A stretch of 64,000 bases of DNA from Opitutus sp. ER46 (GTDB lineage: Bacteria; Verrucomicrobiota; Verrucomicrobiia; Opitutales; Opitutaceae), in NCBI RefSeq assembly GCF_003054705.1, contig NZ_QAYX01000024.1:186001-250000 (forward strand), in the 5' to 3' direction. Below, piece by piece: positions 39,479 to 46,875 of this stretch. The stretch's first letter is position 1, and each line of letters starts with the position of its first letter. Both the position numbers and the translations under genes were made by a program. The notes under the pieces are model-generated. The model saw nothing but the letters and a program-made list of their open reading frames with translations. It made no database searches and was not told the DNA's origin.

Positions 39479-40408
39479 TTAGTGATCGAACAACGGCGTC
39501 GAGTAGTAGCGCTCGGCGCGGTCACAGAGCACGGTTACGACGCGCGCGTCCGGGCCCAGCTCGCGGGCGAGCCGGAGCGCGGCGGCGACGTTGCCACCGC
39601 TCGAGGTGCCGACGAGCAGACCGAATTCGCGGCTCAGCCGGCGCGCCATGCTCACTGCCTCGCCGCTGGCGATCTTGACGATGCCGTCGAGGTTGGCGCC
39701 GACGAGCAGTGGCGGCACGTAGCCGCCGGCGATGCCTTCGATGAGATGACAGCACGGGCACTCGCCGGAGAGCATGGCGGCCTCGGCGGGTTCCATGGCG
39801 AAGACGCGGACGTTGGGGCATTGGCGGCGCAGACCCCGGCCGCAGCCGACGAGCGTGCCGCCGGTGCCGTACCCGGCGACGAACGCGTCCACGCGTCCCC
39901 CCGTTTGCTCCAGGATCTCGACGGCGGTGCCTTCCTCGTGGTCACGGGCGTTGATCGGGTTTTCGAACTGGCGCGGGAGAAAGTAGCGGGGCTCGCGGGC
40001 GGCGAGCTCCAGGGTGAGGTTGATTCCGGTGGCGTAGCCCTTGGTGGCCTTGAAGAGATGCACCTCGGCGCCAAGCTGGTGCATCAGGTGGCGGCGCTCG
40101 ATGCTCGCGGTGTCGCTCATCGCGATGTGCACCTGATAGCCCTTGGCGGCGCCGACCATGGCGAGCGAGATCCCGGTGTTGCCGCTGGAGCACTCGAGAA
40201 TGATCGAATCCGGCCGCAGCAGCCCGCGCGCCTCGGCGTCCTCGATGAGGCAGCGCGCGAGCCGGTCCTTGATCGAACCGGAGGGATTGAGGAACTCGGC
40301 CTTGGCCCACACCGTGAGGCCCTCGGCGGCGAAGCGCAGGGGCATGAGGGGGGTGTGGCCGATCAGGTCGAAGACCGGCGGATGGGCCGGGGCAGACGAA
40401 GCGGACAT
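39479..40408 (-). CDS. Cysteine synthase-family PLP enzyme (CysK/CysM type)
   Basis: 309-residue fold-type II PLP enzyme. FLNPSGSIKDRLARCLIED holds the PLP lysine, ECSSGNTGISLAMVGAAKGYQ the substrate loop, and FVAGYGTGGTLVGCGRGLR and GTSSGGNVAAAL the phosphate and ring contacts. It should make cysteine from O-acetylserine and sulfide, or act in a related beta-replacement reaction; cystathionine beta-synthase cannot be excluded. No CBS or regulatory domain is present. Normal length. ATG at 40406-40408. Divergent from the sigma/FecR fusion gene. Confidence 0.88.
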   Translation of the reverse strand: MSASSAPAHPPVFDLIGHTPLMPLRFAAEGLTVWAKAEFLNPSGSIKDRLARCLIEDAEARGLLRPDSIILECSSGNTGISLAMVGAAKGYQVHIAMSDTASIERRHLMHQLGAEVHLFKATKGYATGINLTLELAAREPRYFLPRQFENPINARDHEEGTAVEILEQTGGRVDAFVAGYGTGGTLVGCGRGLRRQCPNVRVFAMEPAEAAMLSGECPCCHLIEGIAGGYVPPLLVGANLDGIVKIASGEAVSMARRLSREFGLLVGTSSGGNVAAALRLARELGPDARVVTVLCDRAERYYSTPLFDH

Positions 40409-40546
40409 GGCGGCATCCTAGCCTGCGGATCCGGCTGCTGGCTATGGACCAAAGGGAGTAAACGTTCGGCGTTCGGCGGACCGTCCGAAAAACGGTTCGA
40501 CAACCGGCGGCGATTGGCGCACCTGTTCGGGCACCCCATCACCCCA

Positions 40547-41179
40547 ATGACGCCTGTTTCCCACGGACAAGGCCGTCCTTCCGCATCGGCGGTTGCCAAG
40601 CGCGAGGACCACGAGCTGGAGCTGCTGGATGAGACGATCCACCACCTGCCGAAACGTTGCCGCGAAGTGCTGGTGTTGCGCATGCGCCACGGCCTGACGC
40701 TCACCCAGATCGCGCGCGAGCTGGGCCGCAGCGAGGAGACCGTGGTGTCGCAGGCCTGCGCGGGCGTGCGGCGCGGCATGGAGTCGTTTGCCGACGAGGC
40801 CGCCGCGGCGCCGGGGGACGTCACCGACGAGATTCGCAATGCGGCCGCGGAGTGGGTGGTCGAGGAGGATCGCGGGCTGTCGCCGCCGGAGCGGGCGGAG
40901 CTCGAGACCTGGCTGGCGGCGGCGCGGGGCCACCGGGCGGCGTGGGAGGAAGCGCGCGCGGCGTGGCGACACCTGGAACGGTGCACGGAGCTTTCGGAGC
41001 GCAATGTGATGACGGGGGAGGACCTCACGCCGCTACCGGCGGAATCGGCGACCCCGGCGCGGCCGGCAGACGAAGGCGAGGGCGGGCCGACGATTGGAGT
41101 GTGGTCCAACTGGATGGCGGTCGCGGCAGCAGGGCTCCTCGTGCTGATGGGCGCGGGCTATGTGACTTACCTGCTCTAG
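40547..41179 (+). CDS. Sigma-70 region 4 / FecR N-terminal / transmembrane fusion protein
   Basis: 210 residues with an unusual order. Residues ~22-80 are a sigma-70 region 4 HTH (DETIHHLPKRCREVLVLRMRHGLTLTQIARELGRSEETV, then QACAGVRRG), close to FecI-type ECF factors. Residues ~95-145 match the FecR cytoplasmic N-terminal domain (AAAEWVVEEDRGLSPPERAELETWLAA, then HRAAWEEARAAWRHLE). After a short linker comes one membrane helix (NWMAVAAAGLLVLMGAGYVTYLL) and the protein ends there. The sigma region 2 and the periplasmic FecR sensor are both missing, and the 138 bases upstream leave no room for region 2. In normal systems FecR's cytoplasmic end binds region 4 of FecI; here both parts are one chain. 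ATG at 40547. Confidence 0.8.
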   Translation: MTPVSHGQGRPSASAVAKREDHELELLDETIHHLPKRCREVLVLRMRHGLTLTQIARELGRSEETVVSQACAGVRRGMESFADEAAAAPGDVTDEIRNAAAEWVVEEDRGLSPPERAELETWLAAARGHRAAWEEARAAWRHLERCTELSERNVMTGEDLTPLPAESATPARPADEGEGGPTIGVWSNWMAVAAAGLLVLMGAGYVTYLL

Positions 41180-41208: not shown

Positions 41209-42360
41209 CTACTGCAGGATCGTGATCAGCCGGGCGCGGCTGGGGACGCCGGCCTTCGCCAGGATGGAGTGCAACTGCTTCTTGATCGTGGGGACTGATT
41301 TCCCGAGCGCGGTGGCAATTTCCTTGTTGGCCAGGCCGCGGCGGAGGAGCGGCACGAGCTCGCGTTCCGCCCCGCTGAGGCGCGCCAGCAGCGCGGTGGT
41401 GTTGGGTCCGGGGTCCTGGTGGGCCGGACTCAGGTGCGTGACCTCGGTGATGCGGATGAGAAACGTGGGCGCGGAAAGGCGGAGGGCGTGCGGACGCAGG
41501 AGCGTGATCGTGGCCTGCAGCTCCGGGTGCGCCGGATGGGAAATCGTTCGCCGCAGGAGGCGGATCGCGCCGGGTTTCGGGCTGCTCCAGCTCTCGCGCA
41601 GTTCCCGGCAGGCGGTGCGCAGGTCCTCGGGGACCTCGAGGCGCGCGGGTGTTTTCAGCATCCGGGCCGCGCCCCGGCCGTGGGCCCAGGCGGCGCACAT
41701 GCGGGCGGCATAGCGGTTGGCGTGCTCGAGTCCCAGCTGCCAGTTGAGCAGGACGGTGGCGACCGGCAGATCGAGCAGCGACGTCTCGAGATCCGTGCGA
41801 ATGGCGCGGGAGTTCTCGAGCAGCCGCACGCGCTGCAGCGCCGAGGCAAAGTAGGGGTAGGCTTCCTCGAAGAGCGCGGCTTCGTCCGGGGAGAAGGTCG
41901 GCTGGTTGAAGGCGCGGTTGATGAAGAGCGAGCTGTGCACGATCGGGCCGGTCCGGAAGGACATGCCGAGGAAGTCGTGCCACCCCTCGGGCACCATCAC
42001 CTCCTGGAACCAGATCGTCTTTTCCAGCTCGGCAAGCGCCGGGAGCGTCTGGTTCTGGCCGCGGTACACCTGGGTGTTGGGGTGGCGTTCGAAGTAGGCG
42101 CCGACGATCTGCGCGTGTTCCTGCCGGAAGGCGCGCTCCTCCGGGGTGCGGCCGCGCTTCGTGGGGAAATCGCTGCGCACGATCAGGGCCTGCTCGGTAT
42201 CGACCTCGAAATCGAGGTAGTTGAGGAAGACCTCGCCGCCGGTGTGCGGCACGGCCGTGCGGCAGAACTTCACCGCGGCGTCCGCAAAATCTTCATACGT
42301 CACCGCCGCGCACACATCGAGCAGCGCGGTGGCGAGAGCGGGTTGGCGGGTGAGCAGCAT
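41209..42360 (-). CDS. LuxR-family transcriptional regulator
   Basis: 383 residues. The C-terminal ~60 residues are a LuxR/GerE HTH: LSGAERELVPLLRRGLANKEIATALGKSVPTIKKQLHSIL. The N-terminal ~300 residues are not a known receiver or acyl-homoserine-lactone domain; they have GAF-like stretches (LDFEVDTEQALIVRSD, EVMVPEGWHDFLGMSF). ATG at 42358-42360 starts MLLTRQPALATALLDVC; 23 further upstream residues are possible. Its target is unknown; the TonB receptor to the right is divergently placed across a 341-base spacer and is a natural candidate. Confidence 0.87.
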   Translation of the reverse strand: MLLTRQPALATALLDVCAAVTYEDFADAAVKFCRTAVPHTGGEVFLNYLDFEVDTEQALIVRSDFPTKRGRTPEERAFRQEHAQIVGAYFERHPNTQVYRGQNQTLPALAELEKTIWFQEVMVPEGWHDFLGMSFRTGPIVHSSLFINRAFNQPTFSPDEAALFEEAYPYFASALQRVRLLENSRAIRTDLETSLLDLPVATVLLNWQLGLEHANRYAARMCAAWAHGRGAARMLKTPARLEVPEDLRTACRELRESWSSPKPGAIRLLRRTISHPAHPELQATITLLRPHALRLSAPTFLIRITEVTHLSPAHQDPGPNTTALLARLSGAERELVPLLRRGLANKEIATALGKSVPTIKKQLHSILAKAGVPSRARLITILQ

Positions 42361-42701
42361 GGCTGGTGGAGACGTCCGCGCGTCGAGTACGCAGGCATCA
42401 AAGCCAAGGCCGTGCCAGCGGCAGGGCAAGGCCGGAGCCCGTCAGCGCCCCGACGCAGGCTGGTCGCTGGCCACTGAAGCTGCCACCGTCGGCTGGACGG
42501 CCGCGCAGTTACCTGTTGCGCCGCAGCCGCTAGGCACCCTGGGCGGCGCCTCCCGGGTGGCGCGGGGGCAGATGCCTGGGACCGAGGTGAACATGACACG
42601 CCGCGGTCGCTTTCAACCTTACGGACCATTGGTGGTGGTCCGAAAACTGGTGTTTAATCCTTGTGTCCACAGCGTCCGGTCAGCTTCCGCCACACACACC
42701 T
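42361..42701. promoter_or_regulatory. Divergent spacer between the LuxR regulator and TonB receptor
   Basis: No gene is supported in this 341-base stretch. A perfect 7-bp hairpin CGGACCA/TGGTCCG lies at 42622-42642. An AT-richer patch after it contains TTTAAT at 42653-42658, which could be a -10 element for the receptor gene 44 bases downstream; a weak TTGGTG at 42629 is spaced 18 bases before it. The rest is GC-rich and featureless. Confidence 0.35.
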
Positions 42702-45497
42702 ATGCAAAACGTGACTTCGCGCCGCCTGCGGGCTGCGCTTTTCGCGACGATTCCCCTGCTCGTCGCCCCGGTGACTCGCGCCGCCAGCGAGCCGACCGTT
42801 CCCGCCCCTGATCGTCCCCCGACCGCTCCCGCCGTGGTGCCGGTACCGAAGGAACCCGACGAAATCAGCGCCACGGCGCCGACGAAGCTCGCGCCCGTGG
42901 AGGTCACCGGTTCCCGGATACGCACGCTGGGCGCGGAGGTGACCTCGCTGCCGGTCTTTTCGCTCAACCAGATCGAGCTTGAGCGCCGCGGCGTCGAACG
43001 GCTGGCGGACATCCGCTGGGCGATTCCGCAGCTCGGCGCGGCGGTCGGCTTCAATGACAACCTGATGAACGGCGGCACCTCGCGCGCGCAGCAGGTGGGT
43101 ACCTCCTTCAACCTCCGCGGCATCGGCGGCAACTCGACGCTCGTCCTGATCGACGGTCGCCGCATTCCGCACACCGGCCAGGAGGCGCCCGGCGGTGCCG
43201 GTGGCCGCGAGGACTTCAGCGTGGATGGCATCCCGATCTCGGCGATCGAGCGCATCGACGTGCTGCCGGAGGGCGCGGGCGCGGTCTATGGCTCGGAGGC
43301 CATCGCGGGCGTCGTGAACATCGTGCTGAAGAAGAACTACACGGGCGCCGAGCTGCGCGTGGTGTACGACAACACCTTCGACAGCGACGTCGGCCAGACG
43401 ACGGTTAGCCTGGTCGCCGGCTTCCGCGCCAAGAAGCTGAGCACGTTCCTGACGCTCTCGTACGAGAATCAGAACGGGTTGGCCGCGAAGGACCGCTGGT
43501 TCTCGGCGACCTACGACACCCGCATCTGGGGCAGCACGAGCACGAGCTTCCTCTACAACGGCGCCGCCGGCACGGGCACGCTGGGTTCAAGCAGTTATCC
43601 GTTCTATCCCGGGCAGGCCAACCTGCCGGGGCTGACCACCAACAAGGTCAGTATCCCCACCGGCTCGAATGGCACCACCGCGGCAAACGCGGCCTACACG
43701 ACCACCGGCGCGACGATTTACGATGCGGCGCAGTATGCCATGAGCATCGATCCCGCCACGCGGAAGAGCGTGATCTGGAAAAATGATTACGACCTCCTGC
43801 CGTGGGCGCGCGTGTACGGCGAGGCGCGCTGGAGCCGTTTCGAAAACAGCTATATCGGCAGCCCCGTCTCGCTCACCACGGCGCTTCCCGCCGGATACCC
43901 GGGCAACCCGTTCTCCTCGACCGCCTACCTCAGCAAAGTGTTCTGGGACCTCCCGCGGCCGCAGACCGAGTCAGCCCAGGAGAACATGGCTGTTACTCTG
44001 GGAGTGAAGGGCGACTTTCTTTCAACCTGGCGTTACGATGTGAATGCGAGCTGGGCCCGCAACGTCGTCAGCGACGACGCCATCGCCGCCGGGTTCAACT
44101 ACAGCCTGCTTAACGCCGCCATGAACTCGGCCAACAAGCCGATCCTGGCCTACGACAGTCTGAACGGGCGCGATCCCAACGCCGCGGGCGTGCTCGCAGC
44201 GCTGATGCCGGTGGCGGATCACAAGGACACGACCGACACTTACCAATATAGCGCGACGGCGGATGGCACCGTTTGGGATGGTTGGGCGGGGGCCCTGCGG
44301 GCGGCGGTGGGCGTCGAAGCCGGCGAGGAGAAGGTGAAATTCTGGCGCGAGCCAAGTCCGGTGACGCCGACGTACGTCCTGACGAAGCCATTCTCGCGCC
44401 GGCTGGAGGCAGCGTTTGCGGAGGTGACGGTGCCGCTCCTCTCCAAGGACCAGCACATCCCGCTGGTGCATCGATTGGAGGTCGGCGGAGCGGTGCGCGC
44501 GACGGATTACTCCGATGCGGGCTCGGTCACCACGCCGACGTACCGCGCGCTGTTCCAGCCGGTGAAGTGGCTGACGGTTCGCGGCTCGCGCTCGGAAGGG
44601 TTCAAGCCGGTCCGGCTGTACGACCTGCAGGCGCCGGTTTCAAAGTTCACCTCCACACTCACGAGCACGAGCCGGGTGTTCGACCCGCTCCGCGGCAATG
44701 AAGCCGTGCTCGGAACGTATGACTACCTGAGCGGTGGCAATCCGACGCTCAAACCCGAGGACTCCGTCTCCCGGAATGCCGGCATCGTGATCGATATCCC
44801 GGGTCGTTGGTTCAAGGGTTTCTCGGTGTCCGCCGACTACTACGACCTCGAGTACTCGGACCGCTCCGGCTCCACGAGCCTGCAGAACCTGCTGAACTAC
44901 TTCCCGGAGCGGATCTCACGCGCCACGCCCACGGCCGACGACATTGCGCATGGGTATGCGGGACGGATCACCGGCTGGGATGCCAGCAATCTCAACCTCG
45001 CGAAGGTCTGGACCAAGGGGTGGGACTACCAGGTCCGTTACCATCGGATGTTTGGCGCGAACGAGATCTCGATCATCGCGGCGCTCTCCGATCCCAATGT
45101 GATCTACACGAAGGCGACCCCGGCGGCGACCCCGTCCTCCACCTATGGCCACCAGCCGAAACGGGCGCGTTACTCGGCATTCTGGGCCAACGGTCCCTGG
45201 AGCGCCGGCGTCTCGGTCGCGCAGCAGGGCAAGTACTTCATCAACGGGCTGAGCTCTACGGCGTACCCGTCCATCATCACCTGGGATCCCCAGGTCTCCT
45301 ACAACTTCGGCGGCAATCCCCGCTTCCACAAGGAAGCCCAGGAGTGGTGGGTGCGCGGACTGTCGGGCATGAAGGTGTCGTTGACGATCGTGAACGTCTT
45401 CAATCGTGAGCCGTCGATGGCCGATGCCGCGAACGGTCGGATCGTCGTCGATCCGCGGCTGCGACGCTACATCGTGAGCGCGGCGAAAAAGTTCTGA
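42702..45497 (+). CDS. TonB-dependent outer-membrane receptor, second type
   Basis: 931 residues. Signal peptide (RRLRAALFATIPLLVAPVTRA), a Pro-rich linker, then a TonB-box-like APVEVTGSRI and the plug: SLPVFSLNQIELERRGVERLADI, LRGIGGNSTLVLIDGRR, ISAIERIDVLPEGAGAVYGSEAIAGVVNI. The barrel ends in an aromatic residue (SAAKKF). This plug style (GSRI, then ALVLIDGRR) is that of receptors for carbohydrates, peptides or other polymers rather than siderophores, but the ligand is unknown. ATG at 42702 is chosen over a GTG at 42663 because it lies closer to the signal peptide. Two thioredoxin genes follow. Confidence 0.92.
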   Translation: MQNVTSRRLRAALFATIPLLVAPVTRAASEPTVPAPDRPPTAPAVVPVPKEPDEISATAPTKLAPVEVTGSRIRTLGAEVTSLPVFSLNQIELERRGVERLADIRWAIPQLGAAVGFNDNLMNGGTSRAQQVGTSFNLRGIGGNSTLVLIDGRRIPHTGQEAPGGAGGREDFSVDGIPISAIERIDVLPEGAGAVYGSEAIAGVVNIVLKKNYTGAELRVVYDNTFDSDVGQTTVSLVAGFRAKKLSTFLTLSYENQNGLAAKDRWFSATYDTRIWGSTSTSFLYNGAAGTGTLGSSSYPFYPGQANLPGLTTNKVSIPTGSNGTTAANAAYTTTGATIYDAAQYAMSIDPATRKSVIWKNDYDLLPWARVYGEARWSRFENSYIGSPVSLTTALPAGYPGNPFSSTAYLSKVFWDLPRPQTESAQENMAVTLGVKGDFLSTWRYDVNASWARNVVSDDAIAAGFNYSLLNAAMNSANKPILAYDSLNGRDPNAAGVLAALMPVADHKDTTDTYQYSATADGTVWDGWAGALRAAVGVEAGEEKVKFWREPSPVTPTYVLTKPFSRRLEAAFAEVTVPLLSKDQHIPLVHRLEVGGAVRATDYSDAGSVTTPTYRALFQPVKWLTVRGSRSEGFKPVRLYDLQAPVSKFTSTLTSTSRVFDPLRGNEAVLGTYDYLSGGNPTLKPEDSVSRNAGIVIDIPGRWFKGFSVSADYYDLEYSDRSGSTSLQNLLNYFPERISRATPTADDIAHGYAGRITGWDASNLNLAKVWTKGWDYQVRYHRMFGANEISIIAALSDPNVIYTKATPAATPSSTYGHQPKRARYSAFWANGPWSAGVSVAQQGKYFINGLSSTAYPSIITWDPQVSYNFGGNPRFHKEAQEWWVRGLSGMKVSLTIVNVFNREPSMADAANGRIVVDPRLRRYIVSAAKKF

Positions 45498-45502
45498 TCG
45501 CG

Positions 45503-45535
45503 TCGGCTGGTGCTGCGCGATGCGGCGCCAGCCGA
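45503..45535 (+). terminator. Hairpin after the TonB receptor gene
   Basis: TCGGCTGG (45503-45510) pairs with CCAGCCGA (45528-45535) six bases after the stop codon. There is no T-tract, so it may stabilise the mRNA end rather than terminate. Confidence 0.4.
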
Positions 45536-45615
45536 AGTGGCGGTCGACGGCGCCTTCACCGGCGCCTCCCTTTGGCTTCACTCTCGTCACCCCCATAACC
45601 GTCCTCCGTTTTCCT

Positions 45616-46875
45616 ATGAAGAAGTCCCTCCTCCTGCTGTCGGCGGCGCTCGCCCTGACCGCGCAAGCTGCGCCTGACGCCAAACCGACCGGTGCCAGCG
45701 AGTCGTCTGCCGCCACCCCGGTCCCGGCGGTCGAAGCCAAGAGCCAAATCGAAGCCGACTATGACGCGGTGTTCACGATCTGGCGGCGCAAGGCCCCGGA
45801 GGAGCTGAGCCGGAAGGATCGTGCCTTCTGGAGGTTTCAGGACGAGACGATGCGGGCGTTCGCGGCGGCGGCGCGGGCGTTCGCGCAGAAGTACCCGAAC
45901 GATCCGCGCCGGTTCGACGGGCTGGTGCAGTCGAGCTTCACGCGTCCATGGTTCATCGAGGATTTCAAACCCGCGTTCGACGCCCAGCCGGGCGAAAGAA
46001 ACTTGATCGTGGACCAGGCGAAGCTCGACGCCTTCCAGGCCGAGCAGGCCAAGCTGCTGAGCGAGGTGGCGGCGGCGCCCGACGCGAGCCCGCGCCAGCG
46101 CGGAGGCGCGTTCTTTGCGTTGCTGGCGGACGCTCGCGGCAAGGCGCGGGCGGCCGGGCAGGCCTTTGACATCACGCAGTATCAGCCGCTCGTGGACCGC
46201 GTCGTCACGACCCTCGGTGACGAACGCATGATGCCGGTGGTCGAGCAATATGTTGGCGGATTGCGCGAACAGGCGCCGGCGGCGGCGGACGCCTTTGTGG
46301 CGCAGCTGAAGACGAACCCGAAGGTCGCGGTGGCGCTGCAGGCCGCGGAGGACCGCCAGAAGGCGGAGGAGGTCAAGGCAGCCGAAGCGGCGAAGCGCCG
46401 GGCGGCCGAGATCGGCACGCTGAAGTTCACCGCCGCCGACGGGCGCGAGGTGGATCTGGCCAAGCTGCGCGGCAAGGTCGTGCTCGTCGATTTCTGGGCG
46501 ACCTGGTGCGGGCCATGCGTGGCGGAGATCCCGAACGTGGTCGCGAACTACCAGAAGTACCACGACCGCGGCTTTGAGGTGATCGGCATCACGCTCGAGA
46601 ACCCCGCCTTTGCCCAGAAGGACGACGCTGCGGCGAAGGAGCGGAAGCTCGCGGCGGCGAAGCAGAAGATGCTCGATTTCGCCGCGAAGCGGCAAATGAC
46701 CTGGCCGCAGTATTTTGACGGCAAGTGGTGGAAAAACGACTACGCCGTCGCGTATGGCGTGAACGCCATTCCGGCCATGTTCCTGCTGGATCAGGAGGGC
46801 CGGATCGTCTCGACCGAGGCGCGCGGACCGAAGCTCGAGTCCGAGATCCGGCGCCTGCTGAAGATTACCGACTAA
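45616..46875 (+). CDS. TlpA/ResA-type thioredoxin protein with helical N-terminal domain
   Basis: 419 residues. Signal peptide KKSLLLLSAALALTAQA. Residues ~25-270 are an Ala/Arg/Glu-rich helical region (QKYPNDPRRFDGLVQSSFTRPWF) with no family I can name. The C-terminal ~150 residues are a TlpA-like thioredoxin with VLVDFWATWCGPCVAEIPNVVANYQ (CxxC) and GVNAIPAMFLLDQEGRIV (cis-Pro). It should act as a periplasmic thiol reductant, supplied by DsbD. ATG at 45616 begins the signal peptide. The gene is 118 bases after the receptor and may be read with it. Confidence 0.9.
   Translation: MKKSLLLLSAALALTAQAAPDAKPTGASESSAATPVPAVEAKSQIEADYDAVFTIWRRKAPEELSRKDRAFWRFQDETMRAFAAAARAFAQKYPNDPRRFDGLVQSSFTRPWFIEDFKPAFDAQPGERNLIVDQAKLDAFQAEQAKLLSEVAAAPDASPRQRGGAFFALLADARGKARAAGQAFDITQYQPLVDRVVTTLGDERMMPVVEQYVGGLREQAPAAADAFVAQLKTNPKVAVALQAAEDRQKAEEVKAAEAAKRRAAEIGTLKFTAADGREVDLAKLRGKVVLVDFWATWCGPCVAEIPNVVANYQKYHDRGFEVIGITLENPAFAQKDDAAAKERKLAAAKQKMLDFAAKRQMTWPQYFDGKWWKNDYAVAYGVNAIPAMFLLDQEGRIVSTEARGPKLESEIRRLLKITD

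Follow-up and report, generated by a model that had tools for sequence, protein, structure and literature searches.

A single-chain fusion of sigma region 4 and a FecR-type anti-sigma domain in Opitutus sp. ER46, probably a degenerate form of a FecI/FecR pair

One open reading frame in the window (the whole stretch of 64,000 nucleotides from Opitutus sp. ER46 that was analysed) joins sigma region 4, a FecR-type anti-sigma domain and a membrane helix in a single chain of 210 residues (Table 1). The fusion is probably degenerate, and it may well be a minimised FecI/FecR remnant; this is the reading that we prefer, although tentatively. Such a remnant would have been formed in three steps, namely the loss of the stop codon that separated fecI from a fecR in the same frame, by which the genes were joined, the removal of FecI region 2 through in-frame loss, and the truncation of FecR directly after its membrane helix. 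The product would hold region 4 and the FecR domain that binds region 4 in one chain. Its likeliest state would be that of a self-capped, membrane-anchored and transcriptionally inert protein, since a chain that carries both partners but no region 2 would most simply cap its own region 4 with the anti-sigma domain in cis and drive no transcription.

Table 1. The fusion and the neighbouring features in the window
Feature	Positions	Strand	Basis or remark
Fusion ORF, 210 aa	40547..41179	+	sigma region 4 - FecR anti-sigma domain - membrane helix; start ATG 40547, stop TAG 41179
Sigma-70 region 4, residues 25-70	40619..40756	+	Pfam PF08281; alignments
FecR N-terminal anti-sigma domain, residues ~96-145	40832..40981	+	DUF4880 at 99-138; alignments
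C-terminal membrane helix, residues 192-210, predicted	41120..41176	+	hydropathy; stop codon directly after
Cysteine synthase-like (cysK-like) gene, PALP	39479..40408	-	domain match
Spacer to divergent cysK-like gene, 138 bp	40409..40546	.	coordinates
LuxR-type regulator (GerE), divergent to TonB receptor	41209..42363	-	domain match
TonB-dependent receptor, plug + barrel, without STN match	42663..45497	+	Pfam
TlpA/Redoxin protein, behind the receptor in relatives too	45610..46875	+	domain match

The domain assignment draws on several kinds of evidence. Pfam reports Sigma70_r4_2 (PF08281) in the first half of the chain at 39.7 bits against a cut-off of 25.7. In the second half, the FecR N-terminal family DUF4880 scores just under its cut-off in the protein scan (E = 1.9e-5, 24.8 bits; cut-off 25) and above it in the genome scan (28.7 bits, the weakest of nine such sites). 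DUF4880 is a short family with matches in seven of 14 control genomes, in two of them above the cut-off, and stronger evidence is therefore given by a leave-one-out profile made from 55 Opitutaceae fecI-fecR pairs with the fusion excluded, against which region 4 of the fusion scores 66.9 bits and the anti-sigma domain 50.4 bits. By hydropathy, a single predicted membrane helix follows the anti-sigma domain, as in FecR anti-sigma factors, and this is the most hydrophobic 19-residue stretch of the chain (Kyte-Doolittle 1.91, compared with 1.88 and 1.94 in two FecRs). Searches of solved structures with the fusion protein gave matches to the region-4 half only. Pfam, the family profile and hydropathy thus confirm the original prediction, made from the sequence alone, that a region 4, a FecR-type N-terminus and a membrane anchor are combined here, and the profile score of the second half argues against the case raised in it that this part might not be FecR.

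Across the gene junction the fusion is collinear with an ordinary fecI-fecR operon, matching the last ~75 residues of FecI and then the start of FecR up to the membrane helix, and the sequences closest to it are fecI-fecR operons of the usual two-gene kind. The collinearity favours a remnant. So do the 28 of 58 pairs in which fecI and fecR lie in the same frame with a gap of 3-24 bases, a set in which same-frame pairs are favoured, the fusion having served as the query. Where the two genes share one frame and are separated by so short a gap, a single stop loss would fuse them. The first residues of the fusion, MTPVS, resemble many FecI starts (MPPxD) and suggest that the FecI start may be retained, but the resemblance covers five residues and was given no weight.

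Neither of the missing parts was found near the fusion. In the window, tblastn at E 0.1 gave three matches to sigma region 2 (best E 0.036) and seven to the FecR periplasmic piece (best E 0.011), none of them between 30,435 and 43,061. The ORF itself has the region 4 of an ECF sigma factor (FecI) without region 2, and it stops with the membrane helix without a FecR periplasmic domain. An assembly break is unlikely, because the genome is 100% complete in 25 contigs and the one that encloses the ORF is 732 kb long. We reject an assembly or frameshift artefact, the second case against itself that the original prediction had named, since region 2 is absent from all nearby frames and the contig is long. 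The claim that the chain cannot work as a free sigma factor is supported by established sigma biology.

The missing region 2 could in principle be supplied from elsewhere, with the fusion acting as the region-4 half of a split sigma factor that is completed by a separate region-2 protein, as in SigO/RsoA; SigO is described as using region 4 alone (PMC8103513). In the genome, 41 region-2 matches were found at E 0.01, none of them inside the window, and all 41 are in proteins that also have region 4 (33 scanned proteins and eight FecI; the region 4 of L335 lies 0.4 bits below the cut-off, and a more diverged region 2 would escape this search). A split-sigma role is hardly credible for this reason and was rejected, with no lone region-2 protein in the genome at E 0.01.

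Searches of 252 family genomes and of 387 genomes sampled from the phylum, which scored at most the best 54, 12, 8 or 14 candidates per genome and which weak relatives may escape, brought up no ortholog of the short fusion; this favours a remnant. A locus search with the fusion alone as query gave 58 pattern matches and no relatives. A profile search of the 252 family genomes (to ~E 2e-31, at most the best 14 candidates per genome scored) lists 68 matches that span both halves, that is, with a model end at 144 or beyond. Among these listed matches 65 contain at least one internal stop and three are stop-free, namely the window ORF and one match each in genomes G059 and G110, while an open-frame scan of the collected loci gave only the fusion and G059. 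Conservation across Opitutaceae, which the original prediction had proposed to check, was thus not borne out, since the family genomes searched yielded no conserved short fusion. Together with the two-gene organisation of the nearest relatives, this makes fusion and truncation a better explanation than a purpose-built switch.

In G059 (L090; G059:C1, ~681822-682202) FecI and FecR form one stop-free ORF with region 2 in a different frame. It is either a frameshift in the assembly or a pseudogene, and it was rejected as a second fusion because of the frame of region 2. The match in G110, which belongs to another genus (L299:7982-9142; G110:C21), is one uninterrupted ORF of 386 residues. It contains sigma regions 2 and 4, followed by the anti-sigma domain, a membrane helix with a hydropathy of 1.52 and a C-terminus made of the last ~74 FecR residues, which share 50.7% identity with the C-terminus of a FecR in the genome of the window. 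An AcrB-type pump gene adjoins the chain, and the TonB receptor of the window has no match within the 18 kb examined around it. In-frame FecI-FecR fusion therefore happens elsewhere in the family, which is in favour of a remnant in the window.

The position beside cysK is common to the fusion and to fecI-fecR pairs. The pairs were found on the divergent side of cysK in 11 of the 37 relatives examined (G008, G104, G251, G157, G098, G169, G101, G170, G171, G090 and G172), in some of them with another gene between; the 37 were taken from the 56 other family genomes that have a cysK match, and 15 of them were examined with only ~1.5 kb of flank. This shared position favours a remnant. Seven of the 11 pairs are present in the tree described below, where they are spread over three clades apart from the window ORF, and no cysK was found within the 20 kb examined of G177 and G014. 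Because the seven fall in three other clades, they do not point to a direct positional parent, and this counts against a remnant.

The adjacent receptor has no STN match, and the nine STN matches of the genome are all outside the window; the STN TonB receptor that stands beside the pair in cell-surface signalling is therefore absent at the fusion, where a LuxR-linked receptor occupies the neighbouring place. In G008 and G251, the two tested, the receptor after the cysK-side pair carries STN. The missing STN match speaks for a remnant, but STN is an imperfect marker, as Pfam also reports none in the receptor after the intact pair of G177. At 48% identity or more the receptor is found in 14 genomes including that of the window, and in the 13 others it is accompanied by TlpA in all 13 and by a divergent LuxR in 11 (of the two loci without LuxR, L154 begins just ahead of the receptor, and L161 begins 2.6 kb ahead of it and has no LuxR match). 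Since LuxR, receptor and TlpA recur without the fusion in other genera, this module does not need the fusion. The envelope signal that the original prediction saw in these neighbours is weakly supported at best, given a receptor without STN and a module that occurs by itself. The module (41209-46875 in the window) lies near cysK and dsbD here, in G057 and in G058, a setting that hints at the uptake of a sulfur or thiol compound.

The fusion is strongly diverged. In a tree of 56 rows (55 pairs and the fusion; L081, L035 and L100 were dropped from the 58 pairs because the motif script found no region 4 in them), it groups with G177 and G014 (support 99/95), and its end branch of 1.92 is the longest of all, compared with 0.34 and 0.32 for its two sisters, a length for which the tree program warns that placement is unsure. 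Its profile scores are the lowest of the 56 rows, by a clear margin for region 4 (68.4; next 91.7) and by a narrow one for the anti-sigma domain (63.8; next 65.1), and the basic cluster that precedes the membrane helix in most aligned FecRs is absent by eye. The long branch, the low scores and the missing cluster all point to a remnant.

Other features of the same alignment speak against simple decay. The fusion keeps 20 of the 21 columns conserved at 90% or more (hypergeometric P ~2e-7) and 31 of the 35 conserved at 80% or more (P ~7e-10), where P is the chance if retained positions were random, although only 57 of 126 columns are identical between it and its sister L068. Near-invariant columns kept despite this low match indicate that constraint acted along most of the branch, over which pre-fusion and post-fusion time are not separable in this test. 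When 210 codons were left to unconstrained drift without indels (500 runs), the frame was stop-free in only 3.2% at 45% identity and in 16% at 70%, and the real frame reaches precisely to the end of the membrane helix. These points count against a remnant. Codon usage, calculated from tables that exclude the gene being scored, gives the fusion a score of 0.18 versus 0.32-0.69 for 28 chunks of nine window genes; the score lies inside the range of 0.15-0.49 spanned by eleven fecI and fecR genes from this genome. Being ordinary for fecI/fecR genes, it gives no sign of decay, a further point against a remnant, and by itself speaks neither way.

It is most improbable that the frame is an untranslated chance ORF or a dead pseudogene from which no protein is made. 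High G+C keeps frames open (this one for 844 aa) and no clear ribosome-binding site was seen by eye ahead of the ATG, but the G+C of the three codon positions (0.754/0.531/0.853) fits coding, and the fecI/fecR-like codon usage and the conservation pattern also stand against a dead frame.

In the main rival reading, the fusion would have been kept as a dominant-negative competitor that swaps partners with the eight other FecI/FecR pairs of the genome. Anchored in the membrane, its region 4 and anti-sigma domain would titrate the FecR domains or the region 4 of FecI in these pairs and so damp cell-surface signalling. That near-invariant positions were kept despite fast change is in line with such a role, as are the eight pairs available as targets, the coding-type G+C and the codon usage shared with the fecI/fecR genes. 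Moreover, three tryptophans appear to be retained: W103, W122 and W133 of the fusion are spaced almost as W19, W39 and W50 are in E. coli FecR, a correspondence judged from spacing and not from an alignment to that protein, and these three residues, with L13, are reported to be needed for induction in E. coli (PMC9249621). Against a competitor stand the lack of an ortholog among the genomes searched and the reported specificity of FecR-FecI binding, E. coli FecR1-85 being described as not binding PA2468, the FecI equivalent of P. aeruginosa (PMC9249621). Binding in trans would also have to compete with cis-capping. We regard a retained competitor as possible but rather doubtful. The fuller proposal, in which a self-capped membrane module of region 4 and anti-sigma domain without region 2 serves as a dominant-negative regulator of other FecI/FecR circuits, a decoy derived from a fused and trimmed sensor operon, seems unlikely.

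IutY-type hybrids are activated via cleavage by Prc and RseP. A self-inhibited switch, in which RseP would cut the anchor of the fusion and free region 4 and the anti-sigma domain as a small DNA- or RNA polymerase-binding regulator, is an improbable reading here. Truncated forms of IutY in which the membrane helix is retained are reported to be active without signal in an RseP-dependent manner (PMC5411451), and by analogy the anchor of the fusion might be cut constitutively; the genome also encodes a strong Peptidase_M50 match (171 bits). Yet the periplasmic sensor is gone and no STN receptor is adjacent, so that nothing is left to gate a switch, a region 4 that lacks region 2 would not be expected to initiate transcription, and no ortholog was seen. 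The minimised remnant remains the preferred reading.

Several other sigma factors of the same genome are joined to additional domains. One ORF (L336:1393-2784; G000:C24, ~696892-698283) joins a sigma factor to a TonB-type domain, with ECF sigma regions 2 and 4, a hydrophobic stretch at ~244-262 and TonB_C at 369-445 (E = 3.6e-18). Three more ECF sigma factors (L323, L331 and L333) of 481-536 aa have a hydrophobic stretch near residue 230 followed by long, differing C-terminal parts, a layout similar to that of the TonB_C fusion. ECF sigma regions 2 and 4 are also joined to an HDOD domain (L317:214-2031) and to a GNAT acetyltransferase domain (L314:991-2040).

Adjacent genes that share one frame offer a ready route to sigma/anti-sigma fusion. 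A short form that works would be a naturally occurring sigma decoy; one that does not is an example of how FecI/FecR-type systems shrink.

Among known systems, the FecI/FecR pair shares with the fusion a collinear region 4 and FecR N-terminal domain. In E. coli, residues 9-59 of FecR are reported to bind FecI, the N-terminal region of FecR to interact with region 4, and N-terminal FecR fragments to render FecI constitutively active (PMC9249621). The fusion differs in being one chain and in lacking region 2, the FecR periplasmic domain and an adjacent STN receptor. A second relative in design is IutY of Pseudomonas putida, in which a sigma factor and a FecR-type anti-sigma factor are fused (PMC5411451, PMC9249621, PMC8999054) and which likewise combines a sigma part and a FecR-type part in a single chain with one membrane helix. 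As described in these sources, IutY comprises both sigma domains together with a FecR-like periplasmic domain, and its cytoplasmic part consists of the two sigma domains in a predicted model (PMC9249621), whereas the fusion has region 4 and the cytoplasmic FecR domain and does not show the IutY-type order of complete sigma factor, helix and FecR periplasmic domain. The split sigma SigO-RsoA of Bacillus subtilis (PMC8103513) resembles the fusion in having region 4 without region 2, but SigO is described with a region-2 partner protein and none was found in the genome of the fusion.

Sigma factors fused to anti-sigma parts are reported for ECF36, 48, 52 and 53 and for ECF243, the group of IutY, and IutY is named there as the only such fusion with proteolytic activation shown by experiment (PMC8999054). 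Among the matches listed from the open-licence literature, region 4 with a FecR domain and without region 2 was not found. Closest within the family is the G110 chain, also an in-frame FecI-FecR fusion with an anti-sigma domain and a membrane helix; it differs in keeping region 2 and the FecR C-terminal residues and in lying at another locus, beside the pump gene. The Opitutaceae thus add two layouts, the full FecI-FecR chain of G110 and the region 4 with anti-sigma core of the window.
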